This document shows, piece after piece, positions 23,634-41,782 of a stretch of DNA of 64,000 nucleotides (position 1 is the stretch's first letter; every line of letters starts with the position of its first letter). The position numbers were made by a program, and so were the translations under genes. Origin of the DNA: Clostridiales bacterium (GTDB taxonomy: Bacteria; Bacillota; Clostridia; Lachnospirales; Lachnospiraceae); contig JAJQAA010000006.1 in NCBI GenBank assembly GCA_021204045.1, forward strand, positions 1 through 64,000, given 5' to 3'. The notes under the pieces were generated by a model that saw only the letters and a list, made by a program, of their open reading frames with translations, ran no database searches and was not told where the DNA came from.

Positions 23634-24188
23634 CTAAATCCCCCATTCTTCCCGCTCCGCAAGATCCGCATACGCCCTCATCGCATTTTCATTCCGGCTG
23701 TAAGCATTCCGCTCCCGCTGCTGCCGCCGGTAATCCGCCAGCTTTTCCTCATACCCGGCGCGTTTCTCGCGGTAAAATCCAAACCTTCCCCAGAAACGCA
23801 CCCATCCGCTCAGTTTCGCCGGTTTCGCCTGTGGATGAGGATGAGGATTGGGCGGAATCAGCGGCGTGACCTCCGAGTTTTCTCCCTCGCCGACAAGCAC
23901 CGCCCGGAGCGGATTCTCCGACCGGAAACTGGAACCGATCTCGCCGTAAGCCAGATTATGGATCACATGGCTGACCGTCGCCTCCAGATTGGAAGCGTTG
24001 ACCTCAATTCCGTACCGCTCCCCGTAGGGCTTTCCCTCGACCAGCAGACGCGAGAGGACGCGTTCCACGCCATCCTTTGTAATCCGGTATTCCGGAGTTC
24101 CATCTCCAAAAAGCCGGATAAATTCCTCGCTGATCCGGGTGTAATCTCCCGCTTTGTACTCGCGCAGTACCATTCCCGGCTTTGGCAT
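23634..24188 (-). CDS. Hypothetical protein downstream of the RsbW-like gene
   Basis: The 184-residue protein is not recognised. The N-terminal 100 residues look like a compact domain (RITKDGVERVLSRLLVEGK, NLEATVSHVIHNLAYGEIG), followed by a Pro/His-rich hinge (PPNPHPHPQAKP) and a positively charged helical tail with many Arg, Tyr and Glu residues. GAGGGGAGGG lies upstream of the ATG. It is the last gene of the co-directional signalling block and follows the RsbW-like gene by 66 nt, so it may be part of that pathway. Confidence 0.6.
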   Translation of the reverse strand: MPKPGMVLREYKAGDYTRISEEFIRLFGDGTPEYRITKDGVERVLSRLLVEGKPYGERYGIEVNASNLEATVSHVIHNLAYGEIGSSFRSENPLRAVLVGEGENSEVTPLIPPNPHPHPQAKPAKLSGWVRFWGRFGFYREKRAGYEEKLADYRRQQRERNAYSRNENAMRAYADLAEREEWGI

Positions 24189-24254
24189 ACTGATTTTTCC
24201 CTCCCCTCGTCTCCGTATTCTGCGAAACCCGACGTCGCTAAAACGTCTCGTCTT

Positions 24255-24668
24255 TTACAGGAATTTCGTGATCGTCAGAATATTTTTCCCATTCTCGTAA
24301 GAATACTCGATCCCATCCATGCTTTTCTTCGCCATATAGATTCCCAATCCGCCGATCTCCCGCTCCTTCGCGCTGGCCGTAACGTCCGGATCAGCCCGCA
24401 GGAGCGGATTGTAGGGCCGCCCTTCGTCCAGAAACTGGATCGTCACCCGCAGCGGCTCCTCAAGCACCTCACAGCGGACGACGGCGTCCCCGGTCTTGGG
24501 ATGGTAGGCATAATGAGCGATATTGACGTAAATCTCCTCCACGGCAATCTCAATCTGCATCATCTGCCGCGGCGAACAGCCGCAGTCCTCCAGCTGTTCC
24601 CGCACGAAATTCATCACTTCTTCCAGATTCTCCAGTCTGGCTTCCACCTGCATCTCTTTCATCGTCAT
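24255..24668 (-). CDS. RsbW/SpoIIAB-like anti-sigma factor kinase
   Basis: The 137-residue protein has the GHKL ATPase fold of serine kinase anti-sigma factors. The N box is EIAVEEIYVNIAHYAY (about residues 45-60, with the ATP-Mg Asn), the G1 box is FLDEGRPYNPL and the G2 box is GGLGIYMAKKSMD. Such proteins sequester a sigma factor or other partner and phosphorylate a STAS antagonist. A STAS protein (38966-39265) and a SpoIIE-type phosphatase (27868-29472) are encoded upstream in the same block, giving all three parts of a partner switch; no sigma factor gene is seen. The ATG overlaps the stop of the response regulator gene (ATGA). Confidence 0.88.
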   Translation of the reverse strand: MTMKEMQVEARLENLEEVMNFVREQLEDCGCSPRQMMQIEIAVEEIYVNIAHYAYHPKTGDAVVRCEVLEEPLRVTIQFLDEGRPYNPLLRADPDVTASAKEREIGGLGIYMAKKSMDGIEYSYENGKNILTITKFL

Positions 24669-25444
24669 TCTTCCAGCCTTCCCATCGAATACTCCGCCCA
24701 GCTGTAGCAGATCATATAATCGCGCCGGTAATTATTGATCGCGATCGGATCCCCCGCCAGAAAGCGATAACTGTCGCAGTCAAACGTGTCCGTATTGATC
24801 GCATAGCTGTTGTGGCGTTTGACCAGCATCGTCTCGGCCCCCGCATTCTGGAGCGTGCTGCGCAGCTCGGCGTAGATCGTCTGCATGTATTTTCTCCGGT
24901 TTAAATCATACTGGCCATCCTCAAAGAGGATATTGGCCGCCTCACGCAGCGTCACGCTGCTCCCTCTGCGGTCGATCAGATAAGCCAGAAATTCCTTTGA
25001 TTTCATCCGCCGGAAAGACAACGGTTTCCCGTCCACATAGACGTCGAATCCGCCGAAGGTCTTCACCTGGATCCGCTGGCTTGTTTTCCGCTCCCGGTAG
25101 ATAAATGTCAGTTCCCGGCGGATGTCCTCTCTGGACACCGGCTTTAAAAGATACCCGGTGGCATGGATGGAAAACGCGTCCAGCGCGTACTGCTCATAGC
25201 TGGTCACAAAGATAATGTGAATCTCCGGCCAGAGCGCTTTCAGCTGTTTCGCCATGGTAATGCCGTCCGTCGTCCCCATCTCAATATCGAGAAACGCGAT
25301 CGACGGCTCGGTTTTCTTCGCGAAATCCATGGCCATGGATGGACTGGTAAAACCGCAAAGCTCCGCCTCCGGCGCTTCCGCCCGAAGCGATTCCTCCAGA
25401 TCGCGAAGCGCCGGCGCTTCGTCATCCACCAGCATAAATACCAT
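24665..25444 (-). CDS. Response regulator with REC and SARP-type winged-helix domains
   Basis: Residues 1-120 form a receiver domain: the acidic pair in LVDDEAPALRD, the phosphorylation Asp in IAFLDIEMGT and the Lys in YLLKPVSRED. Residues from about 125 form an OmpR/SARP-like winged helix with KTFGGFDVYVDGKPLSF and SFRRMKSKEFLAYLIDRRG. It would control genes in response to the LytS-like kinase encoded just upstream. GGAGGAAACACG supports the start at 25444 rather than 25477. Its stop overlaps the start of the RsbW-like gene, linking two-component and partner-switch signalling in one transcript. Confidence 0.88.
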   Translation of the reverse strand: MVFMLVDDEAPALRDLEESLRAEAPEAELCGFTSPSMAMDFAKKTEPSIAFLDIEMGTTDGITMAKQLKALWPEIHIIFVTSYEQYALDAFSIHATGYLLKPVSREDIRRELTFIYRERKTSQRIQVKTFGGFDVYVDGKPLSFRRMKSKEFLAYLIDRRGSSVTLREAANILFEDGQYDLNRRKYMQTIYAELRSTLQNAGAETMLVKRHNSYAINTDTFDCDSYRFLAGDPIAINNYRRDYMICYSWAEYSMGRLEE

Positions 25445-25469
25445 CGTGTTTCCTCCGTCGTTTGTAAGT

Positions 25470-26759
25470 CTAGCCATGTTTGGGAAACCACATTGTCACC
25501 ACGGTTCCCTCACTGCTGCTCTTAATCATGATCGAACCGCCGCACCGCGCCTCGATTCTCCGGCGCACGTTGGCGATACCGATATGGTTCGAATCTTCCC
25601 AGAAAGTAGCGGCAATCTCCATCCCCACGCCGTCATCCGAGACGATCACGACATAGCCGTCCCTCCACTCTTCCGTATAAATCTTAACGGTTCCGCCCTC
25701 TTCCTTCCGGCGAATGCCGTGGCGCACCGCGTTCTCCACGATGGGCTGTAAGGTCAGCGTCGGTACCATGAAATCGTGGGCGTTAATATTGTAAATCACA
25801 TGCAGCCTCTCCCCGAACCGTTGCTGCTCCAGATTCAGGTAGCTCCTGGCGTGCTCCAGCTCCTGGTCAAACGAAATCAGCTTGTTCGTCGTCAGAGAAT
25901 TCATATTGGCACGCAAAAAACGGGAAAAATCCAGAATGGATTCTTTGGCCTGTTTGGGATCCGTATCGCAAAGCTGCCGGATGGCGGTCAGCGCATTGTA
26001 CAGAAAATGCGGCTGAATCTGGCTCAGCATGATTTCCACCTGCAGAACCGTCAGCTCCTTCTCCGTCTTCCGGACCATCTGATCCTGCTCGCTCTGAACA
26101 TTGATATTTAACAGAAGCAGCGCGATGGTCGCCATCGCGTTGACGTAAGCGCCCCCGTAAAACAAAACCTGGAGCAGCTGGCCGATGGCCGGAAGCAGGA
26201 TGCAGCTGAACAGGAACAGCATCGAACGCGTCGTCAGTTTTCGCCGCCCGCTCCAGAGCAATATCACGCAGAGCACAAAGAGAATGGCCGGAAGAATCTG
26301 CGCCAGCGGAAAATATGGTCCGCGCACATACACATTATTCTCCATAACCTGATAGTACATCCCGTTCCAGAGCGATAGCACGGAACAGGCTACCTGCAGC
26401 GCCGTCACCGCCGTTGCCAGCCGTTCAATCCGGCGGCTGACCACCGTATCCAGATTGAGCAGGCAAATTAGGTATTTTACCAGATTAAAAATAATAATGC
26501 CCGTGCAGGCAAAAAAACAGCACAGTCCGGCCCGGAACAGGAGCCCTTCCATCTTTCCCGGAACCCCGTTGCAAAACCAGTCCGTCAGGTCTCCCAGCAT
26601 CATGCACACATTGGATACCAGCAACGCGACGAGCCACTGCTTCTGCCGCCGGTACCCGTCCATATGGCACAGATAATACAGGATCAGTATCACGCAGATG
26701 AGAATGCTATATGCTTCCAGCGCGATATTCGCTGAACGAATCGAAAATCCCTGCATCAT
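25470..26759 (-). CDS. LytS-type membrane sensor histidine kinase
   Basis: The 429-residue protein has about six membrane helices in the first 220 residues (for example SILICVILILYYLCHM), then a His_kinase domain with the phosphoacceptor in QIQPHFLYNALTAI, the N box PIVENAVRHGIRR and the G box VSDDGVGME, as in LytS/YehU-class kinases. It would sense a membrane or external signal and phosphorylate the REC protein encoded 25 nt downstream. GGGAGGAACG supports the ATG at 26759. It is also preceded by a lipoprotein gene that could provide the sensing partner. Confidence 0.9.
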   Translation of the reverse strand: MMQGFSIRSANIALEAYSILICVILILYYLCHMDGYRRQKQWLVALLVSNVCMMLGDLTDWFCNGVPGKMEGLLFRAGLCCFFACTGIIIFNLVKYLICLLNLDTVVSRRIERLATAVTALQVACSVLSLWNGMYYQVMENNVYVRGPYFPLAQILPAILFVLCVILLWSGRRKLTTRSMLFLFSCILLPAIGQLLQVLFYGGAYVNAMATIALLLLNINVQSEQDQMVRKTEKELTVLQVEIMLSQIQPHFLYNALTAIRQLCDTDPKQAKESILDFSRFLRANMNSLTTNKLISFDQELEHARSYLNLEQQRFGERLHVIYNINAHDFMVPTLTLQPIVENAVRHGIRRKEEGGTVKIYTEEWRDGYVVIVSDDGVGMEIAATFWEDSNHIGIANVRRRIEARCGGSIMIKSSSEGTVVTMWFPKHG

Positions 26760-26821
26760 CGTTCCTCCCTGTCCTGTTGCGCCCTTCCGCACGATATCGC
26801 GCGCCACTCATTGATGTCTTG

Positions 26822-27874
26822 TCATTGCCTGTCTTTTGTTATGATATAGATCGTCCAGTCCCCGTCTTCGTTTGCGCTGTCGAACTCTTCCGTACAGGCC
26901 CGGTCCGCGTAGCATGCCTTATCTTCGCCCGGCACGCGGATCGAGACTTCATCCCCTATCGGGATCTGTTTTGTATACGTCTTTTCATCATCCGTATCCG
27001 GATCCGCAATCACGGTCACGGTTCTCAGATTATCCTCCGCAAAAACGTGTTCATACAGATTCTGCGCTTTCTCCGGTCTTTCCAGGCCATACTCGACGGT
27101 GTTCGTTCCGAGCAGGCGCTCTGTCCCGTCCGCTTTCACCTCAATTTCCGTGCACGACTGCTGAGCCAGCGTTTCGGCGTCCAGCACATATTCGATGCGC
27201 AGATATTCGCCTTCCGTGTAGGTATAATTCCTTTCCTCCATGGAATCCCTGGTATCTTCCCTGGGCAGCTCTGTCGTAATATACAGGTACCCGTCTTTTT
27301 CCTCGCAGCTTTTTATGATTTCGGAAGTGCTGCTGTCGGAATATAAAATGTTATCCGTGTAGAACAAAATCGGCCCCTCATCCGCGCACAGTTCAGCAAA
27401 GCAGACGTCTCCATTATGCGAATACACCTGTTCCCCATTAATATACAATTCGCCATAATCATCATCCGGCCAATCGCTGTAATAGATTTCCGCATCGGCG
27501 TAATTTGTAAGCGTCCCGGTCTCGTCGACAAGCGTATTCTGAAACGAAGAATAGCGGGACACCAGCGTTTCATTTTTATTTGCGCTGACAATCTCCTCCA
27601 TCGTGATGGTCGCGGCCCTGTCGGCAGCCGTCGTTTCTTCCGCCGCGGCTGTTGTCGCTTCCGTTACGGCAGCCGTCGTGACCGCCTCCGTGATTGTTGC
27701 CGCTTCCGTTGCGGCAGTCGTCGTAACCGCCTCCGTAGTTGTTGCCATTGCGGCAGCCGTCGTAGTTGTTGCCGCCGTCCCGCCGCATCCCGCAAGAGTG
27801 AAGCCCATACATACAGCAAGGCACCCCATGGATAATGCGGAATAAATCGTTCGTTTCATCAAACTGTTTAACAT
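26822..27874 (-). CDS. Lipoprotein with Ala/Thr repeat linker, unknown domain
   Basis: The 350-residue protein has a signal peptide with lipobox TLAGC, then about 60 residues made of Ala, Thr and Glu in short imperfect repeats such as TEAVTTTAATEAAT, then an extracellular domain rich in beta strands with no family I recognise. The domain contains EIYYSDWPDDDYGELYINGEQ and ends with a TIYIITKDRQ strand. GGAGGAAATC precedes the ATG at 27874, which overlaps the stop of the SpoIIE-type phosphatase gene by 7 bp. It lies between the phosphatase and LytS genes, so it may sense or present a signal for them; this is inference. Confidence 0.75.
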   Translation of the reverse strand: MLNSLMKRTIYSALSMGCLAVCMGFTLAGCGGTAATTTTAAAMATTTEAVTTTAATEAATITEAVTTAAVTEATTAAAEETTAADRAATITMEEIVSANKNETLVSRYSSFQNTLVDETGTLTNYADAEIYYSDWPDDDYGELYINGEQVYSHNGDVCFAELCADEGPILFYTDNILYSDSSTSEIIKSCEEKDGYLYITTELPREDTRDSMEERNYTYTEGEYLRIEYVLDAETLAQQSCTEIEVKADGTERLLGTNTVEYGLERPEKAQNLYEHVFAEDNLRTVTVIADPDTDDEKTYTKQIPIGDEVSIRVPGEDKACYADRACTEEFDSANEDGDWTIYIITKDRQ

Positions 27875-29472
27875 GATTTCCTCCTCTGGATCGACAGCAT
27901 CGTGATATCGTCAAACTGAGGCGCGTCGGCCACAAACCGGTCGATATCGTCCTTAACCATATGTAGCAGCTGCTCCGGTTCCGCCTCCGGACAGCGGTTC
28001 ATCGCCTCCAGCATCCGCTCCGTCCCATACAGCGTCAGGCCGGCGTCCGTCGCCTCGGTCACGCCGTCGGTATAGACAAAGAGCGTGTCTCCTGGATCCA
28101 GGGTCAGTTCGTACTCGCGATAACGGAAATTTTTTACCCCCGCAAGCACAAGCCCATGTCTGTCGCGCACCAACTCGAAAGCTCCGCCTTCCCGCCGCAG
28201 AGCGGGCTGCTCGTGCCCCGCGTTGGACGCGATAATCCTGCCGGTGGAAATCTCATAGATTCCCAGCCAGACGGTGACAAACATTCCCTCATCATTATTT
28301 TCACACAGCTGATTGTTGACCGTCTCCAGTATTTCCTTGGGTGACAGTCCCGTCTGCGCGACATTTTTCAGCAGGGTCCTGGCAATGACCATGAACAACG
28401 CCGCGGGAACGCCTTTCCCGGACACGTCCGCGATGACCAGCGCCAGATGGTCGTCATCCACCAGGAAAAAGTCGTAGAAATCGCCGCCCACTTCCTTGGC
28501 AGGCGTCATGCTCGCATAAATGTCAAACTCCGGGCGCTCCGGAAAAGCGGGGAAGATACAGGGCAGCATACTGGCCTGTATATGGGCGGCCACATCCAGC
28601 TCCGCCCCGATCCGTTCCTTTTCCGCGGTGACGCTGGCAAGGTTCTGAATATAGTCCCGCAGCTCCGTCGTCATGTACTGGAACGCCTGCGCCAGCTCCT
28701 GCAGCTCGTCCCCCGTGCCGATGTCCACCCGGAAATCATCCAGATTCTCCAGATTGCTTTGCACCAGCTTGCCGGTGGCCTGATGCAGCGTCCCGAGCGG
28801 GCGGATCAGGATATGACGGATATAAAAATAATACGCCACAATGGAGATTGCCAGTACGCTGCAGACAACCAGCAGGCTGGTCAAAATCAGCTGGCGGATC
28901 TGGTCGTTCACCATATCCATGGAAATATCCACGCTTGCCAGCGCCACGGGCTTCCCCGCGCTGTCCAGAATCGCCACATAGGCCGAGGCCAGATAACCGT
29001 ATTCCTCGTTGTTGGTGATCAGGATCACTCTGTCCGCGTCCGGCGCGAACGCGGCGTGCATCAGCTCATTGCCCCCGCCGTAGTAGGCGTCGGCGTCACC
29101 GAGGTCGCAGACCCCCGCCTCGCCCGGATCTCCCGCGTCCCAGATATAGTACATATCCTCTTTCTGAGGAACCACCACATAGAAATACGTTAGGCCCATT
29201 TCGTGCTTCACGGTCAGCAGATACTGGCGGACCTCCTCGTAATAATCGTCCTTCTCTCCTGTGATGTAATACTTCTCAATGCTGTCTCCATCGATCACAT
29301 TCGACGCGATGGAAGCCTGATCGAAGGCCAGATCCGAATAGAACTCTTCCATATGTCCGCGGTAAATCCGGGATATGATCGGGGTCAGCACCAGCATCAG
29401 CAGGGCTGCCATCGCCACCAGCCCCAGCATCAGCTTGGGCTGCAGGCGCAGGTTCCGTCCGGTTTTCTTCAT
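27868..29472 (-). CDS. Membrane SpoIIE/RsbU-type PP2C phosphatase with HAMP domain
   Basis: The 534-residue protein has a membrane helix near residue 20 (MLGLVAMAALLMLVLTPII), an extracytoplasmic sensor domain to about 230, a second helix (LTSLLVVCSVLAISIVAYYF), a HAMP segment (RPLGTLHQATGKL) and a SpoIIE-type PP2C domain from about 310 with the metal-binding motifs EVGGDFYDFF, IADVSGKGVPAALFM and YTDGVTEA. It would dephosphorylate a STAS antagonist, freeing the partner switch. AAAGGAGG supports the ATG at 29472. The ATG overlaps the stop of the formyltransferase gene by 4 bp and its own stop overlaps the next start by 7 bp. Confidence 0.92.
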   Translation of the reverse strand: MKKTGRNLRLQPKLMLGLVAMAALLMLVLTPIISRIYRGHMEEFYSDLAFDQASIASNVIDGDSIEKYYITGEKDDYYEEVRQYLLTVKHEMGLTYFYVVVPQKEDMYYIWDAGDPGEAGVCDLGDADAYYGGGNELMHAAFAPDADRVILITNNEEYGYLASAYVAILDSAGKPVALASVDISMDMVNDQIRQLILTSLLVVCSVLAISIVAYYFYIRHILIRPLGTLHQATGKLVQSNLENLDDFRVDIGTGDELQELAQAFQYMTTELRDYIQNLASVTAEKERIGAELDVAAHIQASMLPCIFPAFPERPEFDIYASMTPAKEVGGDFYDFFLVDDDHLALVIADVSGKGVPAALFMVIARTLLKNVAQTGLSPKEILETVNNQLCENNDEGMFVTVWLGIYEISTGRIIASNAGHEQPALRREGGAFELVRDRHGLVLAGVKNFRYREYELTLDPGDTLFVYTDGVTEATDAGLTLYGTERMLEAMNRCPEAEPEQLLHMVKDDIDRFVADAPQFDDITMLSIQRRKSC

Positions 29473-30302
29473 AATACAGCCTCCTTTGAGATCGGATGTA
29501 CCGTCAGGCGCAGGTGACCGTCCACGGTCCGGTAAAGCCAGCGGTCTTTTGCAAGCCGGCATTCCGGCGCGGGCAGCGCCGCCGTTCCGGCAAGCAACGC
29601 GGTCACATAATACCAGCTGCCGTCCAGCTTTACCTGAGTCATACTGTTATAGCGGCGGAACATATCCCGAGCCTCGGCCAACGTCAGACGGTATTCCAGC
29701 GTCAGAAGCTCCAAAGCCGGTCGGTTCCAGTAGGGCAGGTGCGCGCGCTGCGGTACGGCTCTCTGCCAGGCCGCGTCCAGATCTTCCATAATGTCCTCCA
29801 GCATCTCGCGGGCGGCCGCCCCGCATTTCAGATAAAGATCGACGTTGTCCGTCTCCGGTTTTATATCGATGGTGCGCTGAGCCAGAATATCGCCGCTGTC
29901 CACATTCGCGGTGAGTTTGTGCAGCGTGACGCCGGTCGAGGGAAGATTTCGCTCCATTGCGCATTCCAGCGGATAATAGCTGCGTCCCTGCGGCAGCAAA
30001 GAACTGTGCACATTGATACCGCGAAAATGCCCCAGCTCGGACGGAATGGAGAGGATATGACTGTATTCCGCGGTAAAGAACAGGGCGCTTATCGGCTCCC
30101 GGGAGAGTTCGGCCATGGTTTCCGGGCTGATAACCTCATAGTGCACCGGAATGCCCAGCTCCCCGGCGCGGCGGACAATCGAATATTCCGTAAAATAGTC
30201 CTCGTCATTATGATAGGTGTAAAGCGCCAGTATGTGATGCCGCTCCAGCAGATACTTAAAGCACGATAAAAACACATCCGTACCGAAATATACTATGTTC
30301 AT
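29469..30302 (-). CDS. Formyltransferase-family protein (Fmt-like)
   Basis: The 277-residue protein has the N-terminal formyltransferase fold that uses 10-formyl-tetrahydrofolate: MNIVYFGTDVFLSCF, the catalytic Asn-His in GINVHSSLLPQGRSYYP (about residue 100), and the catalytic Asp in ANVDSGDILAQ. The C-terminal 70 residues could form the small beta-barrel. Because the gene is not beside peptide deformylase but within a signalling and secretion block, the target is more likely a sugar, amine or other small molecule than Met-tRNA. GAAGGAC precedes the ATG at 30302; the earlier in-frame start at 30395 lacks this. The stop overlaps the next gene by 4 bp. Confidence 0.82.
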   Translation of the reverse strand: MNIVYFGTDVFLSCFKYLLERHHILALYTYHNDEDYFTEYSIVRRAGELGIPVHYEVISPETMAELSREPISALFFTAEYSHILSIPSELGHFRGINVHSSLLPQGRSYYPLECAMERNLPSTGVTLHKLTANVDSGDILAQRTIDIKPETDNVDLYLKCGAAAREMLEDIMEDLDAAWQRAVPQRAHLPYWNRPALELLTLEYRLTLAEARDMFRRYNSMTQVKLDGSWYYVTALLAGTAALPAPECRLAKDRWLYRTVDGHLRLTVHPISKEAVL

Positions 30303-30391
30303 TTGCCGTTGTCCTTCATTATATCGTGTGCACGAATGATACGGGCAGAGACTCGGAAAATCTACGATTTTCCTCTGCCCTTTTACGCACA

Positions 30392-32146: not shown

Positions 32147-32242
32147 GGACTGTCTCCTCCCGTCTGATTCTGATTTCCAAGCCCATTTTTTCGGTGCTGA
32201 CTTCCAATCTGTGCTTCCCGCAGCACCGTCAAATCTTTCGTT

Positions 32243-34015
32243 TTATTCGGTGGTGCCGGTCAGCACAATCCGCCCGGAGCCAGCGATGTCCTCATAGTCC
32301 AGCAGATAGCCCGTATAAGCGGCCAGCGGACTGTTTTTCGAGGAAATGTTCGCGTAGCCGTCGCCGTTGGAATCCGCAAACGCCATCGCGTACTCGGCCA
32401 GCGCCATATAATCCTCGCAGAGATAATCTTTCACCAGAACGCTCCCGGAAAACATGTCAAAACCGCCGCCGCAGTTGCGCAGCGTATAGTTGGTTCCCGC
32501 CACGCGATAGGTCTTGCTCAGGTTCAGCGCCTCGTACGCGCCCGTTCCCTTATTGTAAACCCGGACATTGGATACGCGGTACTTCTGCGGCGCTCCGATC
32601 CAGACGCTGTTTTCATCCTCCTGTATCGTGTTCTCCACGGAGGTGTCAATCTCAAAGCTGAGACCCGCCACATGAAGGAACCCACCGGCTTCCCCCACGC
32701 CCACGTAGCGCGCGCCGAATTCCAGCGCGTCCAGAATCGCCTGGCCGTCAACCTCTACCATACAGATCACGTTATTGAACGGATTGATCATTTTACAGGT
32801 AAGGTAACTCCAGGTCCCAACCTCGGCGCCCGAGCGGATCCCGCCGCCGTTCATGATGGCAATATCGCAGTCCAGCCCTTCTTTCCCATTGAGGTACCAG
32901 TAGTAAGCGTCCGCGTTGAAATCGCCGATGTTGGTCTCCTGGCTGCGAACGGCACGCTCGCCGTTGCTGTCATTGACGGTCAGCTCCACATCGCCGTCCG
33001 CGATCCGCACGGCCAGATCCTCTTCAATCTGCGTAATCCACGAGCTCTCGACCGCCTCTACATCCGCGTTTGGAGCGGTATCCTTTAAATCCTCCGCGGT
33101 GAGCAGCGTCGTCGTGATCCCGCCATCCGTATCGATCGTCATCTGCCCCAGCGCGGCCAGATAAGCGCCGGTCTGCGTGAGAATCACGGGGTTGCCATCC
33201 CGGTCCGTGACCGTCTCCATCTCCACCGTGCTGTGGGAATGTCCGTCAATAAACGCATCCAGTCCCGTCGTGTTCGCGATGACTTCCCGCGACGTCCAGG
33301 GCACCGAGCTTGGGTCAATGCCGAGATGCCCCAGCGCGATCACGTAGTCGACCCCCTCGCCCCGCGCGGCGTCAATGGCGGTCTGTACGCTCTCGTAGAG
33401 CGCCCGGCCATCCGTGCCGCCCGCAATGCCGTAAATAAAGTTCCCGTTCGCGTCCTGAAAATATCGCGGCGTCGATTTGCTGAACGATTCCGGCGTGGTA
33501 ATGCCGATCAGGGCGATCCGGACGCCGTCGACATCAAATATTTTGTAGCTGTCCAGCACATTGTCCCCGACCACGCCGTTCTGCTCATGGTAGAAATTGC
33601 AGGAGACGTAAGGGAAGTCCGCCCAGGCAATGGCGTTTAACGCGCCCTCCATGCCGTAATCAAACTCATGGTTGCCCAGGGTAGCCAGATCGTACCCTGC
33701 GGTATTCATGATCTGAATGATGGAATATCCGTTGTCCATGCTGCCGTACGCGGTGCCCTGGATATGGTCACCGGCGTCCACCAGCAGCACATGATCCAGC
33801 CTGTCGCGGTACCCCGCGACCAGGGAATACGTCAGATCCTGGTCGATATACGTATGGATATCGTTGGTATACAGGATGGTTACGGCCGCGTCCTCCGTCG
33901 CCGCCGCTTTCCCGGACGCAAGACCGCCCGCTCCCGCGTACGCGGTAACCGTCAGCGACAGGCTCAGCAGAAGCGCTGAAACTAACGCGTAAATTCGTTT
34001 GATTGGTTTGTTCAT
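32243..34015 (-). CDS. Secreted 5'-nucleotidase / metallophosphoesterase (UshA-like)
   Basis: The 590-residue protein has a signal peptide (ALVSALLLSLSLTVTAYAGA), a calcineurin-like metallophosphoesterase domain with the metal-binding motifs YTNDIHTY, LVDAGDHIQG, LGNHEFDYG and DGHSHS, and a C-terminal 5'-nucleotidase domain from about 340 (MNGGGIRSGAEVG, NTLR-like NYTLRNCGGGFDMFSG). It would dephosphorylate extracellular nucleotides or related compounds at the cell surface; no LPXTG or other anchor is seen. GAGGAGG lies upstream of the ATG. It is 23 nt downstream of the second NHLM ABC gene, within the same co-directional block, which is an unusual place for a scavenging enzyme. Confidence 0.92.
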   Translation of the reverse strand: MNKPIKRIYALVSALLLSLSLTVTAYAGAGGLASGKAAATEDAAVTILYTNDIHTYIDQDLTYSLVAGYRDRLDHVLLVDAGDHIQGTAYGSMDNGYSIIQIMNTAGYDLATLGNHEFDYGMEGALNAIAWADFPYVSCNFYHEQNGVVGDNVLDSYKIFDVDGVRIALIGITTPESFSKSTPRYFQDANGNFIYGIAGGTDGRALYESVQTAIDAARGEGVDYVIALGHLGIDPSSVPWTSREVIANTTGLDAFIDGHSHSTVEMETVTDRDGNPVILTQTGAYLAALGQMTIDTDGGITTTLLTAEDLKDTAPNADVEAVESSWITQIEEDLAVRIADGDVELTVNDSNGERAVRSQETNIGDFNADAYYWYLNGKEGLDCDIAIMNGGGIRSGAEVGTWSYLTCKMINPFNNVICMVEVDGQAILDALEFGARYVGVGEAGGFLHVAGLSFEIDTSVENTIQEDENSVWIGAPQKYRVSNVRVYNKGTGAYEALNLSKTYRVAGTNYTLRNCGGGFDMFSGSVLVKDYLCEDYMALAEYAMAFADSNGDGYANISSKNSPLAAYTGYLLDYEDIAGSGRIVLTGTTE

Positions 34016-34038
34016 TTGATTTTCTCCTCCTCTTTTTC

Positions 34039-36219
34039 TTAACCCACCTGCTGGCGTTCCACCAGGCGGGCAAATTTTCCATTCCTCTCTATCAGCTGGT
34101 CATAGCTTCCTTCCTCGGCAATCTTTCCGTTCTCCAGATAAAGAATCCGATCGCAGCGGCGGATCGTGGAAAGCCGGTGCGCGATGACGATGCGGGTACA
34201 TTTCAGGCCGTCCAGAGCCTCGGAAACATTTTTCTGCGTCAGATTATCCAGCGCGCTGGTCGCCTCGTCCAGCATGAGGATTTTCGGCTTTGCGGCAATC
34301 GCCCGCGCAATCATCAAACGCTGCTTCTGACCGCCGGATATGCCGCCCTGCCCCTCTGAAATCATCGTATTCATCCCCATGGGCATACGCCGGATATCAT
34401 CCGCGATCCCCGCAAGCTCCGCCGCCTCCCAGGCCGCCTCCAGCGTAAGGCCGGGTGCCGAGATCGCGATATTGGAATAAATATCGCCCTGGAACAGCTT
34501 CCCGTTCTGCATCACCACCCCGATTCTTCCCCGCAGGGATTTGGGGTCGATGGACGACAGATCCCTGCCGTCATAATATACGGCACCTTTCTGCGGCTTT
34601 TCCATTCCCAGCAGAATCCGCATCAGCGTCGATTTGCCGCAGCCGGTCGGGCCGACCACGCCCACATATTCCCCCGGCCGGATCTTCAGAGAAAGATTGT
34701 CCAGCACATGGGGCATATCGCTGCCGTACTGAAAGGTGACATTGTTCAGCTCCACACCGCCGGAGAGCCGCGTCACCGGCTGCTGACTGCCGGAAACCTC
34801 CGGAGCCGTGCCGAGGATGGGCGACAAAAGCTCCAGCGCCGGCCGGATATTCGCGCCCGTGAGCGCGGCCGCGGACAGAGCTGTGAACGCTCCGGACAGC
34901 ATGCCGTAAGCGGAACTGAACGCGTAATATTCCGCGACCGATACCCCGCTTGTCAGGGCCAGGCGGTACATGACCACATTCCCGGCAAGCAGAATCGCGG
35001 TCGTAACCGCCGTATTATAACGCACAACGGCAGGAGGACGGTACTGGACCGCCGCCCGTCTCGCATAATGCTCGCTCCAGCGCAGAAACGCCCGCTTCTC
35101 CGCGCCCGCAATCCGCACTTTCTGTATACCTGAAATCAGAGCGTAGCTGATTCCCGATTCTTTCAATTCATACTCCATCTGCTTTTTTGTCACGCGCATC
35201 TGCGCAAATGACGAGATCACCGCAAATCCCGTCATCAGCAGGATAATTAAAATCCCCGGAAACACCAGCGCGGGCGCATAGGCGAAAATCTGCGGAATGT
35301 AGACCAAGGAACAGACCGCGGTCAGTCCCGCGGCAAACAGCACGGAAACCATCATCTCCCCGAGTGTTTCCGTCAACTGCACCATGCCCGCGAGCTCGCC
35401 GGAGCTGTAGCCCCGGAAAAACGCGGCCGGCAGCGACAGGATCCGCATCATCGCGGCGGACTCCACATTCAGTTTTATTTTTGCGCCGATTTTCCTTACC
35501 GCGATGGCCTGCGCCGAGGAGATAAAACGCCCCGATACCATGACGCAGACCATAAAGATCGTCACCGAGAGCAGCGCGGCCGCGTCGCCGCTCTCCGCGA
35601 CGCTCCCGACCAGCATATTGGTAAGCTGCGGCGTCAGAAGACCCAGCAGCGCCGCCGCAAACGCCAATACCGCTGCAAACGCCGCATCCGGCACGGAAAA
35701 CAGCCGGATAATATAAGTATATAGCTCCAAAAAGCTCATGGCTTTCAGCGGAAACGGCTGATACAGAACAATCGCTTCCTTCTCAAAAAGCTCCTCCGTT
35801 TTCCATGTGACCCGCATGCGCTTCCCGCTCTCAGAATCATAATAACGATAGCCCGAGACATTGTCCGGAATCAGCGCGACCGCGGTCTGATCCGCTTTTT
35901 TCACGCCCAGCATCGCGCCGGTTGCGTTGCGGCTCCAGCCCTTTTCCAGGATCACATTGCGGTACATCATCCCGTGCGGGCGCAGCTGGTATTCCAGACG
36001 CTGCTCAAAGCCCTGAATCTCCTCCGGAACCTCGCAGGGCTTCCCATGATAATAGGCAATCAGCTCGTCGACCGCGCTCTGCGTTTTCCGCGAATCGGAC
36101 TGAATGGAAAGCGAAATGCGCAAGCCGGATACCGCGTCCGCGATCCCCGCAACCGCCTGCGCGAACATCTCATCGTCATTTTTTTCCCGTTCCCGGATCT
36201 GTTCATCAAACCAGCCCAT
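34039..36219 (-). CDS. NHLM-type bacteriocin exporter ABC protein without peptidase
   Basis: The 726-residue protein has an N-terminal soluble domain of about 190 residues (starting MGWFDEQIREREKNDDEMF), a six-helix ABC membrane domain and a C-terminal ATPase with Walker A GPTGCGKST, signature ISGGQKQRLMIARA and Walker B ILMLDEATSALD. The long N-terminus and pairing with a C39-peptidase ABC protein are typical of the second ABC subunit of NHLM (nitrile hydratase leader microcin) export systems. It starts 11 nt after the C39-ABC gene with AGGAG upstream. Together they would cleave the leader and export the peptide encoded at 39350-39721. Confidence 0.9.
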   Translation of the reverse strand: MGWFDEQIREREKNDDEMFAQAVAGIADAVSGLRISLSIQSDSRKTQSAVDELIAYYHGKPCEVPEEIQGFEQRLEYQLRPHGMMYRNVILEKGWSRNATGAMLGVKKADQTAVALIPDNVSGYRYYDSESGKRMRVTWKTEELFEKEAIVLYQPFPLKAMSFLELYTYIIRLFSVPDAAFAAVLAFAAALLGLLTPQLTNMLVGSVAESGDAAALLSVTIFMVCVMVSGRFISSAQAIAVRKIGAKIKLNVESAAMMRILSLPAAFFRGYSSGELAGMVQLTETLGEMMVSVLFAAGLTAVCSLVYIPQIFAYAPALVFPGILIILLMTGFAVISSFAQMRVTKKQMEYELKESGISYALISGIQKVRIAGAEKRAFLRWSEHYARRAAVQYRPPAVVRYNTAVTTAILLAGNVVMYRLALTSGVSVAEYYAFSSAYGMLSGAFTALSAAALTGANIRPALELLSPILGTAPEVSGSQQPVTRLSGGVELNNVTFQYGSDMPHVLDNLSLKIRPGEYVGVVGPTGCGKSTLMRILLGMEKPQKGAVYYDGRDLSSIDPKSLRGRIGVVMQNGKLFQGDIYSNIAISAPGLTLEAAWEAAELAGIADDIRRMPMGMNTMISEGQGGISGGQKQRLMIARAIAAKPKILMLDEATSALDNLTQKNVSEALDGLKCTRIVIAHRLSTIRRCDRILYLENGKIAEEGSYDQLIERNGKFARLVERQQVG

Positions 36220-36230
36220 GCGTCTTACTC

Positions 36231-38417
36231 CTATTCCCCGGATACCAGTGCTGTATACACGCCGTTTTTCGCGTAAAGCTCCTCATGGGTCCCGCGCTCC
36301 ACGACCCTGCCGTGCTCCATCACCAGAATCTCGTCGCAGTCCCGTATGGTGGAAAGCCGGTGGGCCACCACGATACAGCTGATTCCCCGGTCGCAGATCG
36401 ACTGCACCACCTCATGCTCTGTTTTCGCATCCAGAGCGCTGGTCGCCTCGTCCAGAATGATTACCGTGGGATCCTGGGCCAGCACGCGCGCAATCTCCAG
36501 CCTCTGCCTCTGGCCGCCGGAAAGATCCTTTCCTCCCTCGGCCAGCCTGTACTGGTAACCGCCCTCCCGCTGCATAATGTCCTCGTGCAGTCTCGCGTCC
36601 CGGGCCGCCAGGATCATCTCAAAATCCGCAATCGAATTGTCCCACATTTTAATGTTATTCGCAATCGTATCTTCGAACAGAATGATATCCTGATCCACCA
36701 CGGCCACCGAACCGGTGAACACGCTCCGGCGAATTTCCCCTATGGGCTTTCCGTCAAACAGAATCTCCCCGCTCCAGGGCTGGTACAGTCCGGAAATCAG
36801 CTTTGCCAGCGTCGATTTCCCGCAGCCGGAACCGCCCACGAAAGCCACGCGCTCTCCCGGTTCCAGCTTCAGGCTGAAGTTCTCAATGAGCGGCGGCTCC
36901 AGGCGCGAATAGCCGAACGTCACATTCTTCAGCTCCACCCGGCCGCTCAGCTTGTCATATTCCTCGTCTTCCTTCAGCTCGTCCTCATCTTCGCAGTTTA
37001 CGTCGACAGGATAGCGCATGACGTCTTCCACCCGCTCCATCTCCGTGCGCATTTCCTGCAGCCCCTGCCCCGCCGATATCAGCGTGGAGGCCGGCCCGGA
37101 AAAGGACGTCAGAAATCCCTGGAACGCCATGACCATACCAAGCGTAAAGTTTCCCCGCATCGTAAGTCCCACGCCGCAGGACAGGACGAGGATCCCGGCG
37201 AGACCGGAGACGATCTCCGGCAGCATTCCCAGATACTGGTCGACCAGCGTGTAGCTCGTCTCCTGATTGTTCACGCTGGCCTGATAACCGGCCCATTTCG
37301 CGAAAAATCCATCTTCAACGCCGCTGGCTTTGATGGTTTCGATCATCTCGATCCCGGACACGGTCGCTCCATCCAGCTTTCCCTGGTCACGCATCTGCAC
37401 CCTGGTAATATTGATCCGCTTGTCTGAGATCAGCTGGGCGATCGCCAGATTCACCGCGACGGAAATCAGGCCGACCGTGCTCAGCGCCACGCTGTAGCGC
37501 AGCATCACCACCAGATAAAAGAACATCATCGCCGCGTCGAAAATCAGAGGCGCGAAGGTATTGACCAGCGTATTCGCAATCTCCGCGTTCGTCGTCTGCC
37601 GCTGCTGAATATCTCCCGCCATGCGCTGGGAGAAAAATTCCATGGGCAGCCGCAGAACCTTCCAGAAATAGGACGCGCTCCCATAGCTGGCCAGCTTTCC
37701 GTTAATCCTCCATCTCGCGCCCTCGGCCAGAAAGAGAGAAACCGCCTGCAGCAGACAGAAGAAAACCAGCAAAATAAAAAAAGGCGACGTCCATTCCGGA
37801 CTTGTCCCCGTCAGCAAACGATCCAGAAAAACTCTGGTGAAGGCCGGCTGGACCATCCCCAGAAGCGAAGACAGCAGCGCGGTCAGGGCAACAAAAAGAA
37901 ACGCGCTCTCCGCTCCCTTCAGGCGCGCTCCCGCAAAGGCCAGCATACTTTTCCGTTTCCCTTCCGGGGCAAAATCCTCCCCCGGCTCAAACAACAGGCA
38001 GATCCCGGTGAACGCCTGGTCAAACTCTTCCATGCTGACCGCTACGCTGCCTCTTGCCGGATCGTTTAAAAAGGCCCGGTTTCCCTTAAATCCGTTTAAA
38101 ACCACAAAATGATTGAAATTCCAGTGAACAATACAGGGGAACTTCCCCTTCTCTCTCAGCTGCTCCGGCTCATAGCGGTAGCCTGCCGCTTTCAGCCCGT
38201 AGCTTCTTGCCGCCTTCAGCAGATTGACCGCCTTCGAACCGTCGCGGGAAACGCCGCAGTCCAGGCGCACCTGCTCCAGGGGAATCCATTTCCCATAATA
38301 GGCCAGAATCATCGTAAGACACGCCGCCCCGCACTCCAGCGCCTCCAACTGCATGACTACGGGAACCTTCGCCGTCCCCTTCTGTACCGGCTGTTTTATC
38401 GCTCTCTCTCTGCTCAT
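36231..38417 (-). CDS. NHLM-type C39 peptidase / ABC exporter
   Basis: The 728-residue protein joins a C39 peptidase domain (residues 1-150; catalytic Cys29 in ALECGAACLTMIL, His in HWNFNHFVVLNG, Asp in LNDPARG), a six-helix membrane domain and an ABC ATPase with Walker A GGSGCGKST, signature LSGGQRQRLEIARV and Walker B VIILDEATSALD. It would cut leader peptides after a double glycine-type site and export the product. The Nif11-type precursor encoded upstream has such a site (GVSGG). It follows the HlyD-like gene by 13 nt and precedes its ABC partner by 11 nt. All catalytic motifs look intact. Confidence 0.93.
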   Translation of the reverse strand: MSRERAIKQPVQKGTAKVPVVMQLEALECGAACLTMILAYYGKWIPLEQVRLDCGVSRDGSKAVNLLKAARSYGLKAAGYRYEPEQLREKGKFPCIVHWNFNHFVVLNGFKGNRAFLNDPARGSVAVSMEEFDQAFTGICLLFEPGEDFAPEGKRKSMLAFAGARLKGAESAFLFVALTALLSSLLGMVQPAFTRVFLDRLLTGTSPEWTSPFFILLVFFCLLQAVSLFLAEGARWRINGKLASYGSASYFWKVLRLPMEFFSQRMAGDIQQRQTTNAEIANTLVNTFAPLIFDAAMMFFYLVVMLRYSVALSTVGLISVAVNLAIAQLISDKRINITRVQMRDQGKLDGATVSGIEMIETIKASGVEDGFFAKWAGYQASVNNQETSYTLVDQYLGMLPEIVSGLAGILVLSCGVGLTMRGNFTLGMVMAFQGFLTSFSGPASTLISAGQGLQEMRTEMERVEDVMRYPVDVNCEDEDELKEDEEYDKLSGRVELKNVTFGYSRLEPPLIENFSLKLEPGERVAFVGGSGCGKSTLAKLISGLYQPWSGEILFDGKPIGEIRRSVFTGSVAVVDQDIILFEDTIANNIKMWDNSIADFEMILAARDARLHEDIMQREGGYQYRLAEGGKDLSGGQRQRLEIARVLAQDPTVIILDEATSALDAKTEHEVVQSICDRGISCIVVAHRLSTIRDCDEILVMEHGRVVERGTHEELYAKNGVYTALVSGE

Positions 38418-38430
38418 TGTCCCACAGCCC

Positions 38431-38937
38431 TCAATTTACAACAAACGATATCGGAGAAACCCGCTCCGTCACGATCTCCGACCGGTATACGCCGTCCGCC
38501 AGGCCTACATCATCCGCGGGGGATGCACCGTCCGGGAGTTTTTTCTCCAGCACCGCCTCGTACACCCATTCGCCCCGCTGAAGATCTCCGACATGAAGGG
38601 CATAATCCGGAAGCTCCCCGGATACCGCCACGGGTTCCGCAGAAACGGAGGAAACGATAAATTCATTTCCGTTTATCCTCACGGTCATCCCCTCACGCAC
38701 GGAGCTATTTTCCTCTTTTATGTAAACGGTGGCCACGCCGTCCTTCGCGACCGCAGCGGCGGAAATCACCGTCTCCAGCCGGCCGAACACGCCCCAGGTG
38801 CAGACGCCGACAAGCAGCAGAATCACCGCGCCAAGCAGCATCCATACGGGAGGATCCGCCACGCGGATGTAATCGTTTAATTGTTCCGGCGAGGAAATCC
38901 GCTCAAGGCTCTTTTTTCTGAAAATATGCTGTGCCAT
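38431..38937 (-). CDS. Short HlyD-like NHLM secretion protein
   Basis: The 168-residue protein starts MAQHIFRKKSLERISSPEQL, a sequence typical of NHLM-system HlyD family proteins, then has one membrane helix (MLLGAVILLLVGVCTWGVFG, about residues 33-52) and a short extracytoplasmic beta-rich domain. It lacks the long coiled coil of full-length membrane fusion proteins, which fits a Gram-positive cell with no outer membrane. GAGGGAGAGG precedes the ATG at 38937; the longer in-frame start at 38991 overlaps the STAS gene and is rejected. It is directly followed by the C39-ABC exporter. Confidence 0.85.
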   Translation of the reverse strand: MAQHIFRKKSLERISSPEQLNDYIRVADPPVWMLLGAVILLLVGVCTWGVFGRLETVISAAAVAKDGVATVYIKEENSSVREGMTVRINGNEFIVSSVSAEPVAVSGELPDYALHVGDLQRGEWVYEAVLEKKLPDGASPADDVGLADGVYRSEIVTERVSPISFVVN

Positions 38938-38965
38938 TCCTCTCCCTCTCGTTCCGGGCGGAGAA

Positions 38966-39265
38966 TCATTCAATGTTGAGGATGTCCACAAACCCGGTCA
39001 GTTCAAAAATATCATTGATACCGTCATTCACGTTCCGCACCGTCATTTTCCCCTGCCGCTCCATCACCTTATGCGCCGCCAGCAGCACACGCAGCCCCGC
39101 GGAGGACACATAATCCAGCTTTTCAAAATCAAATACCAGATCTTCCACCTCGCCAATATCGCGCTTCAATTCCTTCTCCAGCATGGGAGCCGTCGGCGTA
39201 TCCAACCGCCCCTCCAGCTTTATCGTAAGCTTCTTTCCTTCCGCGATCTTATCAATCGTCAGCAT
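38966..39265 (-). CDS. STAS-domain anti-sigma factor antagonist (SpoIIAA/RsbV-like)
   Basis: The 99-residue protein is a single STAS domain: LTIKLEGRLDTPTAPMLE, LVFDFEKLDYVSSAGLRVLL and KMTVRNVNDGINDIFELTGF. The Ser pair in YVSSAGLR (about residues 55-56) is the usual phosphorylation site for an RsbW-type kinase. It would compete for an RsbW-like protein and be reset by a SpoIIE-type phosphatase. AAGGAGGAG precedes the ATG. It lies between the precursor peptide gene and the secretion protein gene, so partner-switch signalling and peptide export share one transcript; the kinase and phosphatase genes follow 10-15 kb downstream. Confidence 0.92.
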   Translation of the reverse strand: MLTIDKIAEGKKLTIKLEGRLDTPTAPMLEKELKRDIGEVEDLVFDFEKLDYVSSAGLRVLLAAHKVMERQGKMTVRNVNDGINDIFELTGFVDILNIE

Positions 39266-39349
39266 TTCTCTCCTCCTTACAGAAAAATCCCCGGCGGCTT
39301 TTCCGGAGCCATATCCGAATCCCCCGCCAGGGCTGTTCTCTCGCTCTCT

Positions 39350-39721
39350 TTAAATATACTGATGCTGCGGCGGCTGATTCGAAGCGGGGACCACTGTCTT
39401 CGGAGCCTGTGTATATTCCAGCGTCTGCGCCTTTGTCGTCCCACCGGAATAGTATCGCTTATATTCGAGCGTATTCACGGTAGGTTTAGTTATGCCCAGA
39501 AAAATCCCGCCGGACACCCCTTCCAGCTCCTCCTCGGACAGCTCGCCGTCGTTCGCCACCACAAAATCTTCCTCGGTCAGCGTGCAGCCATATTCAGCAG
39601 CCAGACTGATTATCTGCTTCACAATATCCTCAGCGCTCTGGTTTTCGATCTCCGCGATCTTCGCTTTCAGCTCCTCATTCGATTCCACTGCTTCCATAAA
39701 TTTTTTCATTTCTTCTTTCAT
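39350..39721 (-). CDS. Nif11-type leader peptide precursor (putative secreted peptide)
   Basis: The 123-residue protein has a Nif11-like leader of about 75 residues (MKEEMKKFMEAVESNEELKA at the start, ending SEEELEGVSGG) and a C-terminal core of about 50 residues. The GVSGG site fits cleavage by the C39 exporter encoded downstream. The core has no Cys, so lanthionine or Cys-heterocycle chemistry is not possible; it contains two TLEY segments, a second GG (YYSGGTTK) and many Thr, Tyr, Gln and Pro residues. No lanthionine, radical SAM, cyclodehydratase or other tailoring gene is seen nearby. AAAGGAG precedes the ATG at 39721. A 12-codon mini-ORF (MNMTDEKNEKHD) overlaps the preceding stop codon and may couple translation. 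Confidence 0.85.
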   Translation of the reverse strand: MKEEMKKFMEAVESNEELKAKIAEIENQSAEDIVKQIISLAAEYGCTLTEEDFVVANDGELSEEELEGVSGGIFLGITKPTVNTLEYKRYYSGGTTKAQTLEYTQAPKTVVPASNQPPQHQYI

Positions 39722-39775
39722 AATGATGCTCCTTTCGTTATTAATCATGCTTTTCGTTCTTCTCATCCGTCATGT

Positions 39776-40540
39776 TCATCCCGCCTCCTGACTGGTTTCC
39801 GTTTCAAACCCATTCAGGCTTCCCGCAAACTGGCTTCTCAGGGTCGTATACAGCCGCGCAAACGTCGCCTCCTTATATGGCTGGATAAAGAGTCCACCGA
39901 TTCCCAGCGTAATGGTGCCAAGAATATCCCAGCCTATGAAAGACAGCCTGAGCACAAAGAGGTTCCATTTGTGCCCCTTCATCATTTCTTTGGAGAGCCT
40001 CAGCGCATCCATCGGCTTCATATCCGGATTCTCCGCCAGGATATAGAATGCCATATAATAGCAGTAGTGCAGGTAAATCCCCGGGATCACCAGGCAGACC
40101 GTACCAATCATGACAAGCACATCACGCAGAAGGAACGTCAGCACCAGATTTATGTAATTGTGCCGGAATCCCCATCCCAGGAGACTCACCGGATTTTCTT
40201 TTCCCGTCTGCTGCCCCTCCAGATAAAACCGGTTTTTTCCAACCGTCAGCGCCGGCCTCAGCAGGGCATTGATCAGTACGCAGACCACGGCGATCACGAG
40301 AACTGTCCCCGCCATCAGCCCCATAATGATAACGCCGTATTGAAGCTCTCCCGCGTCCACCGGAAGAATCTTGCTCGCGATAGCCGGGATATCGGAAATA
40401 TTGTCCGGCATTTCGACGTCCCCGTTCCCGTTAAAAATCCGATTAACCAACGTAACGATCAGACTCACCAGGAACGCTTTCCAGTAATACGCTTTTAAAT
40501 CACTTTTGGCCTTCGTTTTCAGCTCTTTCCTCGTCCACAT
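39776..40540 (-). CDS. DUF975-family membrane protein
   Basis: The 254-residue protein begins MWTRKELKTKAKSDLKAYYW, the hallmark of DUF975, and has about five membrane helices (for example GLMAGTVLVIAVVCVLINALL). DUF975 proteins are common in Firmicutes and often lie near peptide or bacteriocin genes, but their function is not established; roles in immunity or membrane homeostasis have been suggested. The start at 40540 is chosen over 40558 on the basis of the family N-terminus. It is the first gene of the peptide export block, 54 nt upstream of the precursor gene. No clear promoter was found upstream. Confidence 0.85.
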   Translation of the reverse strand: MWTRKELKTKAKSDLKAYYWKAFLVSLIVTLVNRIFNGNGDVEMPDNISDIPAIASKILPVDAGELQYGVIIMGLMAGTVLVIAVVCVLINALLRPALTVGKNRFYLEGQQTGKENPVSLLGWGFRHNYINLVLTFLLRDVLVMIGTVCLVIPGIYLHYCYYMAFYILAENPDMKPMDALRLSKEMMKGHKWNLFVLRLSFIGWDILGTITLGIGGLFIQPYKEATFARLYTTLRSQFAGSLNGFETETSQEAG

Positions 40541-40862: not shown

Positions 40863-41495
<633 letters not shown>

Positions 41496-41782
41496 TTATT
41501 CCATTATTGTAACTTGTAAAATTATGGTTCGGAATTGTCCATAGAACGAAAAAAGCTCCTCTCACGGCATCATGAATGAATCATCAACCATGCAAAGAGC
41601 ATTTTAATAAAACTGTTGTCATACGCATATAAATGAAATACAACGAACATACGAAAACCATATGCTTTTCCTCACGTAAGGGGAATGCCATTATGTTCGC
41701 AGTGAGAAGCATAAACGTCAGAAATAATTTTAAGAACAGAAGGCCTTTTCGTTACAAAATAGAACATTTCCACAGGGTATCG

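Follow-up and report, generated by a model that had tools for sequence, protein, structure and literature searches.

In the genome of a Clostridiales bacterium of the family Lachnospiraceae (assembly GCA_021204045.1), an operon-like locus of 15 minus-strand genes, at 23634-40558 of the first 64,000 nucleotides of contig JAJQAA010000006.1 (that whole stretch is hereafter the window), holds both Nif11/NHLM peptide export genes and a recurrent partner-switch transport cassette. In this cassette the STAS protein may, on an evenly balanced judgement from sequences and models, dock on a pseudokinase domain fused to a MATE transporter and so gate the transporter. The recurrence suggests that a partner switch can control membrane transport besides gene expression. 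The families are individually known, and their combination was not found in the literature searched; what is new here, to judge from the sequence, is the loss of the N-box Asn in the MATE-fused domain of the window, a residue kept by free RsbW proteins.

All of the families named for the run in an initial annotation are present, and the 15-gene minus-strand set with short spacing described there is borne out by open reading frame (ORF) calls and by Pfam and TIGRFAM matches; the upper end, which had been placed at 40540, is corrected to the DUF975 start at 40558. Successive called ORFs are spaced by -26 to +96 bp, the exception being -94 at an over-extended SpoIIE start, and by eye the starts of SpoIIE (~29472), the formyltransferase (~30302) and HlyD (~38937) are probably internal to the longest ORFs. 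From its 5′ end the run reads:

39776..40558, minus strand: DUF975 membrane protein, first gene of the run (PF06161)
39350..39766, minus strand: Nif11-type peptide precursor with a GG site and no Cys beyond the GG (TIGR03798, PF07862)
38966..39265, minus strand: STAS phospho-acceptor protein (putative), SSAGL site present (TIGR00377)
38431..38937, minus strand: short HlyD-like export protein, start by eye (partial TIGR03794, under cut-off)
36231..38417, minus strand: NHLM C39 peptidase-ABC exporter (TIGR03796, over cut-off)
34039..36219, minus strand: NHLM second ABC exporter (TIGR03797, just under cut-off)
32243..34015, minus strand: 5′-nucleotidase, predicted secreted from a signal-like N-terminus seen by eye (PF02872, PF00149)
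30392..32146, minus strand: MATE transporter with a SpoIIAB/RsbW-like predicted pseudokinase domain at 30392-30826 (PF01554, PF13581 (HATPase_c_2))
29469..30302, minus strand: formyltransferase, N-H and D motifs present (PF00551, Formyl_trans_N)
27868..29472, minus strand: SpoIIE-type phosphatase with a membrane/HAMP sensor part, DVSGKG and FDDIT motifs (PF07228, PF00672)
26822..27874, minus strand: Thr-rich lipoprotein of 350 amino acids (no Pfam family)
25470..26807, minus strand: LytS-type sensor histidine kinase (PF06580 (His_kinase), PF02518 (HATPase))
24665..25477, minus strand: response regulator (PF00072 (REC); C-terminal DNA-binding part by eye)
24255..24668, minus strand: free RsbW-like kinase, N-box ExxxN intact (PF13581 (HATPase_c_2))
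23634..24188, minus strand: 184-amino-acid ORF, last of the run, membership doubtful (no Pfam match)

What is the domain at the end of the transporter? By sequence it matches PF13581 at 38.6 bits versus 27.4, and a profile of the fused domain retrieves SpoIIAB among solved structures. Its predicted structure, with a predicted local distance difference test (pLDDT) score of 90.4, has SpoIIAB, RsbW and UsfX chains as best PDB matches; the 13 best are anti-sigma kinase chains, and 11 of the 13 come from complexes with a STAS protein. The model of the full fusion (pLDDT 88.2) matches MATE structures at TMt 0.75-0.85 in its best 20 matches, the MATE transporter being under the NCBIfam TIGR00797 cut-off (138.6 versus 147.4 bits). 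The N-box of the fused domain keeps its EE, and its Asn is replaced by Ala. That Asn serves in ATP/Mg binding, and it is from its loss that the C-terminal domain is called a predicted pseudokinase. Among free RsbW-like proteins the Asn is kept in 25 of 27 (one has Ser, one a gap), and the alignment gives the free kinase of the window an intact N-box, EEIYVNI.

Loss of the Asn divides the MATE-HATPase fusions in a manner that goes with their surroundings. Those read come from 40 fetched regions, mostly the best-scoring of more MATE-type matches, and from regions of earlier searches; the Asn is lost in 26 of the 66 (8 A, 6 L, 4 V, 3 I, 3 S, 2 T) and kept in 40. All 26 N-lost fusions have a gene for STAS, SpoIIE or free RsbW no more than 4 kb away, versus 11 of the 40 N-kept ones, the corresponding counts being 24/26 versus 9/40 within 2 kb and 26/26 versus 13/40 within 10 kb, and with the 9 seed loci of the search alignment removed the 4 kb comparison is 17/17 versus 11/40. 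Within 10 kb of N-lost fusions there is a formyltransferase in 12/26, LPG_synthase_C in 9/26, GNAT in 4/26 and NHLM in 4/26 (genome G179 is a fifth, at ~16 kb), versus 0/40 of N-kept fusions in each case. All three switch genes stand within 10 kb of just one of the 40 N-kept fusions, and that locus holds an N-lost fusion as well.

How many independent events does this represent? In a tree of the MATE part of 64 fusions, from which two N-lost fragments were left out (L296, at a contig end, and L239, with its MATE gene as two ORFs), N-box state needs 2 changes, compared with at least 14 for shuffled labels. The N-lost fusions thus form two clades, one with 13 members and support 1.0, the other with 11 and support 0.86, and are not 26 independent events. 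N-box loss and neighbours were at first weighed as independent for each genome, and that weight was lowered after the tree. The 13-member clade, which holds the window and genomes G308 and G899, mostly has formyltransferase or LPG_synthase_C nearby, with a nonribosomal peptide synthetase (NRPS) and a STAS-condensation fusion near its member L102. The 11-member clade, which holds G157 and G179, has GNAT in 4, GH3 in 5 (by Pfam for L309, by eye in L311, L320, L328 and L332) and neither in L106 and L306.

The cassette of STAS, MATE-HATPase fusion, formyltransferase, SpoIIE and RsbW recurs whole or partly in the order and the class. Counting formyltransferase and/or LPG_synthase_C, it is complete in loci L299, L300, L298 and L310 and partial in L296 and L301-L304, and a class-wide formyltransferase search gave mostly weak matches resembling housekeeping Fmt. 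Compared with the ground plan of L298, STAS-MATE-formyltransferase-SpoIIE-RsbW, STAS and MATE of the window are separated by the NHLM genes and the nucleotidase, and SpoIIE and RsbW by the lipoprotein and two-component pair. NHLM genes and the MATE-fusion cassette share one locus in five genomes, namely that of the window and four others that came from the flanks of exporter matches, from order-level MATE fusions and from fused-domain matches:

G308: HlyD, ABC, ABC, short leader-like ORF, Nif11-like peptide, radical SAM, STAS, formyltransferase, LPG_synthase_C, MATE fusion, SpoIIE-HATPase fusion
G157: HlyD, ABC, ABC, Nif11, radical SAM, sigma, SDF symporter, STAS, MATE fusion, GNAT, SpoIIE, RsbW
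G179: MATE fusion, GNAT, SpoIIE, RsbW, sigma, several Nif11-like peptides, radical SAM, HlyD, ABC, ABC, STAS
G899: STAS, formyltransferase-LPG_synthase_C fusion, MATE fusion, SpoIIE, RsbW, 368-amino-acid ORF, HlyD, ABC, ABC, Nif11, LanM-like, radical SAM, relative of the window lipoprotein

The Nif11-like peptide of G308 was detected at E 5e-4 with a profile made for this analysis and has no Pfam match, and the kinase-like N-terminus of the G157 symporter was placed by alignment. The reading of the initial annotation would have been refuted had the signalling and NHLM genes kept company only in this genome. They are joined also in G308, G157, G179 and G899, and a genome search for co-occurrence of STAS, the MATE-GHKL fusion, SpoIIE and NHLM found the set in several further genomes; that it is unique to this one is rejected, as it recurs in other genera.

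On the exporter tree the joined loci occupy three places, the window, a group of G308, G899 and G157 (support 0.92) and G179, the group also taking in G012 and G199, whose MATE fusions are on other contigs; on the MATE tree they stand on five branches. G157, with an exporter of the G308/G899 group and a MATE of the other clade, shows that the parts were re-paired. We read the trees as repeated association, a pattern which shared accessory islands could also yield.

Does the association extend beyond the joined loci? The second ABC protein was found at E 1e-80 or better in 25 of 200 genomes of the same family, the window genome included, and these 25 have 86 STAS (PF01740) and 66 SpoIIE (PF07228) matches at E 1e-5. 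Within 15 kb of NHLM lie 13 of the STAS matches, in 10 of the genomes, where 1.4 are expected under uniform placement, and 8 of the SpoIIE matches, in 8 genomes, where 1.2 are expected; with the window genome left out, the counts are 12 versus 1.4 and 7 versus 1.2. Uniform placement is a simple null and accessory-gene clustering would raise the expected counts; these counts, and the genome counts for the Fisher tests, were made by eye. The enrichment supports the joining of signalling and secretion that had been proposed from the window itself. At the level of genomes, NHLM is present in 6 of 11 with an N-lost fusion versus 18 of 141 others of seen fusion status (Fisher 0.002), or versus 19 of 189 when all others of the 200-genome sample are taken (Fisher 0.0006), and with family genomes found later the comparison becomes 10/19 versus 19/189 (Fisher 2.4e-5). 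Fusion status was seen for 152 of the 200, 72 in the fused-domain match list and 80 in a follow-up search; G060 and G127 matched in the latter and are absent from the former, which is thus incomplete for the sample. Of 20 N-lost-fusion genomes searched afterwards, 7 have an NHLM-type gene, that of G464 at just 29% identity.

The switch proteins of the window are conventional in their matches. The STAS protein scores 64.2 bits with TIGR00377 (cut-off 53.45) and has, in its SSAGL site, the phosphorylatable Ser of a partner-switch antagonist, its phosphorylation being predicted; the SpoIIE phosphatase scores 181.1 bits with PF07228; and RsbW is the sole solved relative of the free RsbW-like protein found by sequence. 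Genome-wide there are two PF01740 matches at E 1e-5, the second of which adjoins HATPase and SigBFG genes on contig 34 in a group read as spoIIAA-spoIIAB-sigF, and the fused-domain profile has two matches at E 1e-6, the MATE fusion and RsbW. With one of the two STAS genes in a spoIIAA-like group, the STAS protein of the window is the natural candidate partner for the free RsbW as well as for the MATE domain. The partner sigmas of SpoIIAB and RsbW are SigB/F/G. No sigma factor gene lies within the run, and the view of the initial annotation that the RsbW-like protein may have some other partner stands; the sole SigB/F/G-type match over the curated cut-off in the genome is on another contig, beside its own STAS and HATPase. 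Partner switches are known to control sigma factors and a few enzymes, and as targets other than sigma factors exist, the working analogy holds despite the missing sigma gene.

The export part is likewise recognizable. The Nif11 leader matches TIGR03798 (37.5 bits, cut-off 32.3) and the C39-ABC protein TIGR03796 (942.6 bits, cut-off 853.3), and the second ABC protein scores 674.5 bits with TIGR03797 (cut-off 709.4), its next family being at 328.6. The HlyD-like protein fails the full-length TIGR03794 model, with 27.6 versus 156.2 bits over positions 1-49 of 421. That the NHLM part is for this reason a pseudo-locus was considered and rejected, as HlyD is short in many such loci: across 30 of them (L032-L061) HlyD matches are of 74-230 amino acids in 19, longer in 6 and absent in 5. 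Among the matches listed, the best-matching named exporter loci are from Lachnospiraceae, Blautia and other Clostridia; a scan of genome contigs with a general ABC motif gave at least 80 loci, of which 17 were used (L112-L125, L132, L135 and L142). Near NHLM in 6 of the 30 loci (L032, L033, L035, L040, L052 and L058) is a family of proteins of 158-182 amino acids, assigned to sigma by a profile of our own, the L033 member having Sigma70 regions 2 and 4.

Several known systems invite comparison. Like Rsb/SpoIIA (SpoIIAA-SpoIIAB-SigF, RsbV-RsbW-SigB), the window has a STAS protein with a Ser site, a GHKL kinase with an N-box, a SpoIIE-type phosphatase with a sensor part and, in its fused domain, a predicted SpoIIAB fold; unlike it, the locus is without a sigma gene and has a second kinase-like domain, its N-box Asn lost, fused to a transporter. 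In SiaABCD of Pseudomonas aeruginosa, HsbA/HsbD and BgrV/BgrR, as far as the pertinent parts of PMC8457831 go, a STAS-like protein is switched by a phosphatase and a kinase and acts by binding an enzyme directly, with no sigma. With the SiaA model the SpoIIE protein of the window scores 83.1 bits, well short of the cut-off of 700. The SiaABCD target is a diguanylate cyclase (PMC8457831); the one proposed for the window is a transporter, reached via a pseudokinase domain. BtrU/BtrV/BtrW of Bordetella link a partner switch to a secretion system, there of type III, and no transporter-kinase fusion is described in the relevant parts of PMC8256260. SLC26/SulP transporters do carry a partner-switch-type domain, but it is the STAS half that is fused there (PMC8256260, in its sections on the subject), whereas the window has a free STAS protein and a fused kinase-like half. 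A 2010 paper described NHLM/NHLP export with Nif11 precursors (PMC2887384, in the parts that concern it), and the window shares its C39-ABC, second ABC, HlyD-like protein and Nif11 precursor; unlike in that system, HlyD is short, the run shows no modifying enzyme, and partner-switch genes lie within it. The words sigma and STAS have zero occurrences in the text of PMC2887384. The literature search gave no text joining NHLM with SpoIIE and STAS, or Nif11 with SpoIIE, and none joining three of MATE, HATPase_c_2, SpoIIE and STAS; one STAS review that it found treats SulP/SLC26 transporters. No transporter as a partner-switch target appeared in the titles and abstract starts searched, coverage that excludes preprints and most subscription papers.

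How might the parts work together? In what follows we infer STAS-MATE binding, gating, the substrate, a common transcript or co-expression, and the product. SpoIIE, as sensor phosphatase, and the free RsbW-like kinase would set the phosphorylation state of the single STAS protein, which when unphosphorylated would be divided between RsbW and the MATE C-terminal domain. As it keeps the SpoIIAB/RsbW fold and the N-box Glu and has lost the ATP/Mg Asn, the MATE domain should bind STAS and not phosphorylate it. STAS would dock on it, as SiaC docks on SiaD (PMC8457831), in place of a sigma factor, and the docking would gate the transporter. The formyltransferase would make or finish a small product for export by MATE; how far the run is expressed would be set by the LytS/response-regulator pair; and the NHLM exporter would cleave and export the Nif11 peptide. 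Formyltransferase, LPG_synthase_C, GNAT, GH3 and NRPS attach formyl, acyl or aminoacyl groups, and, to go by these partner enzymes across loci, a small N-acylated compound may be what is exported.

Could it all be an ordinary partner switch? The RsbW-like protein would then hold a sigma factor or regulator encoded elsewhere, the MATE domain would be a STAS sink or membrane sensor, and transport would be unregulated. The STAS, RsbW and SpoIIE parts are canonical, sigma genes adjoin NHLM at other loci and, in G179, RsbW, and the MATE fusion could act upstream as a sensor. We nevertheless find it unlikely, given a run without sigma, a sole SigBFG match that has its own STAS and HATPase neighbours, and an NHLM-adjacent sigma, that of L033 tested by Pfam, with regions 2 and 4 only, whereas the partners of SpoIIAB and RsbW are SigB/F/G; moreover, switch genes accompany the fused domain in two clades, and an SDF symporter and an ABC ATPase have kinase-like domains too. 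Co-location at three exporter-tree places and with two MATE clades, the position of the window NHLM genes between STAS and MATE at a spacing of -26 to 96 bp, and an enrichment of STAS/SpoIIE near NHLM that includes loci without a MATE fusion (G058, G079, G127) tell in turn against mere shared location, i.e., an exporter of ribosomally synthesized and post-translationally modified peptides (RiPPs) and an unrelated metabolite-export cassette gathered in one accessory island. This too seems improbable to us, even with resolvase and toxin-antitoxin-type genes flanking the run, a same-genus genome, G172, that has no NHLM and no fusion match, both parts on different contigs in G012, and NRPS-type genes near MATE fusions too.

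Gating of the MATE transporter by STAS must also be weighed against a number of observations. Partner-switch neighbours within 4 kb are found for 11 of the 40 N-kept fusions too, all three switch genes are within 10 kb in just 10 of the 26 N-lost loci, and N-box state covers the fetched fusions only. As the tree calls for just two changes, the neighbour test amounts to some two independent events and its p-values overstate the support; for 48 of the 200 sample genomes no fusion status was seen. The window run is without the radical SAM or LanM enzymes found in G308, G157 and G899. No NHLM exporter was seen in the flank of 21 of the 26 N-lost loci, 7 of the 26 having a flank of <3 kb on one side, and the cassette thus seems able to work without NHLM. 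Finally, a terminator-like hairpin at 39308-39289 (minus strand), in the 84-bp gap between Nif11 and STAS, could split expression of the run. Sites similar to it occur in shuffled sequences, as do sites like the promoter-like one 5′ of the run at 40636-40607, and neither demonstrates one single transcript. The hairpin possibly lets the precursor be expressed above the remaining genes.

STAS and kinase-like domains are attached to other proteins elsewhere. STAS is fused to an AMP ligase in L052 (3745-5652, by eye), to an NRPS condensation domain in L102 (1654-3273, Pfam) and to APH-like kinases in L111 (3770-5290, Pfam), L045 (10368-11474) and L118 (4144-5310), the last two by eye; several such STAS-enzyme fusions adjoin NHLM or MATE fusions. 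Kinase-like domains are carried by SDF symporters and, terminally, by an ABC ATPase (L033 3300-4895, L103 12001-13611, L311 7456-8550), that of the L033 symporter being placed by alignment alone, with no Pfam HATPase match.

Of the other genes in the window run, the formyltransferase has ArnA as its best solved relative and shows the N-H and D motifs of its family, and the motifs expected of SpoIIE and the C39 domain are present. As for the regulator described as REC-wHTH, REC is confirmed by PF00072, while the DNA-binding part, seen by eye, has no Pfam match. A relative of the lipoprotein adjoins the G899 locus (L351 12025-13731, 34% identity over 210 columns, E 2e-18). The 184-amino-acid ORF has no relative among the loci searched with the proteins of the run; its codon-position GC is like that of neighbouring genes, a coding-like composition. 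Genes on either side of the run (window 40863-42989 and 22000-22278) comprise a serine resolvase, an MqsA-like/Panacea pair and a RelB antitoxin, and with G172 lacking an exporter or fusion match the locus looks accessory. Further off is a Clostridiales-1 RNA (Rfam RF01699) at 49739-49897 on the plus strand (120.6 bits, gathering score 48).

A wider proposal, which we put forward tentatively and lean somewhat against, is that clostridial biosynthesis-export loci use STAS and kinase-like domains as a general docking code, with kinase-like or pseudokinase tags on transporters (MATE, SDF symporter, ABC ATPase) and STAS tags on enzymes (AMP ligase, NRPS condensation domain, APH-like kinase). A single phosphorylation switch would in this way assemble or gate product synthesis and export; the window would then represent a small-molecule MATE exporter and a Nif11 peptide exporter under this code. 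For gating of the MATE transporter itself, N-box loss would offer a sequence marker for finding such transporters, and a kinase-dead acceptor fused to a transporter would, if the reading is true, open the direct, phosphorylation-dependent gating of export to testing. A group of clostridial peptide exporters, whose control was not found described in the literature searched, would then have both a regulator and a co-exported small molecule.

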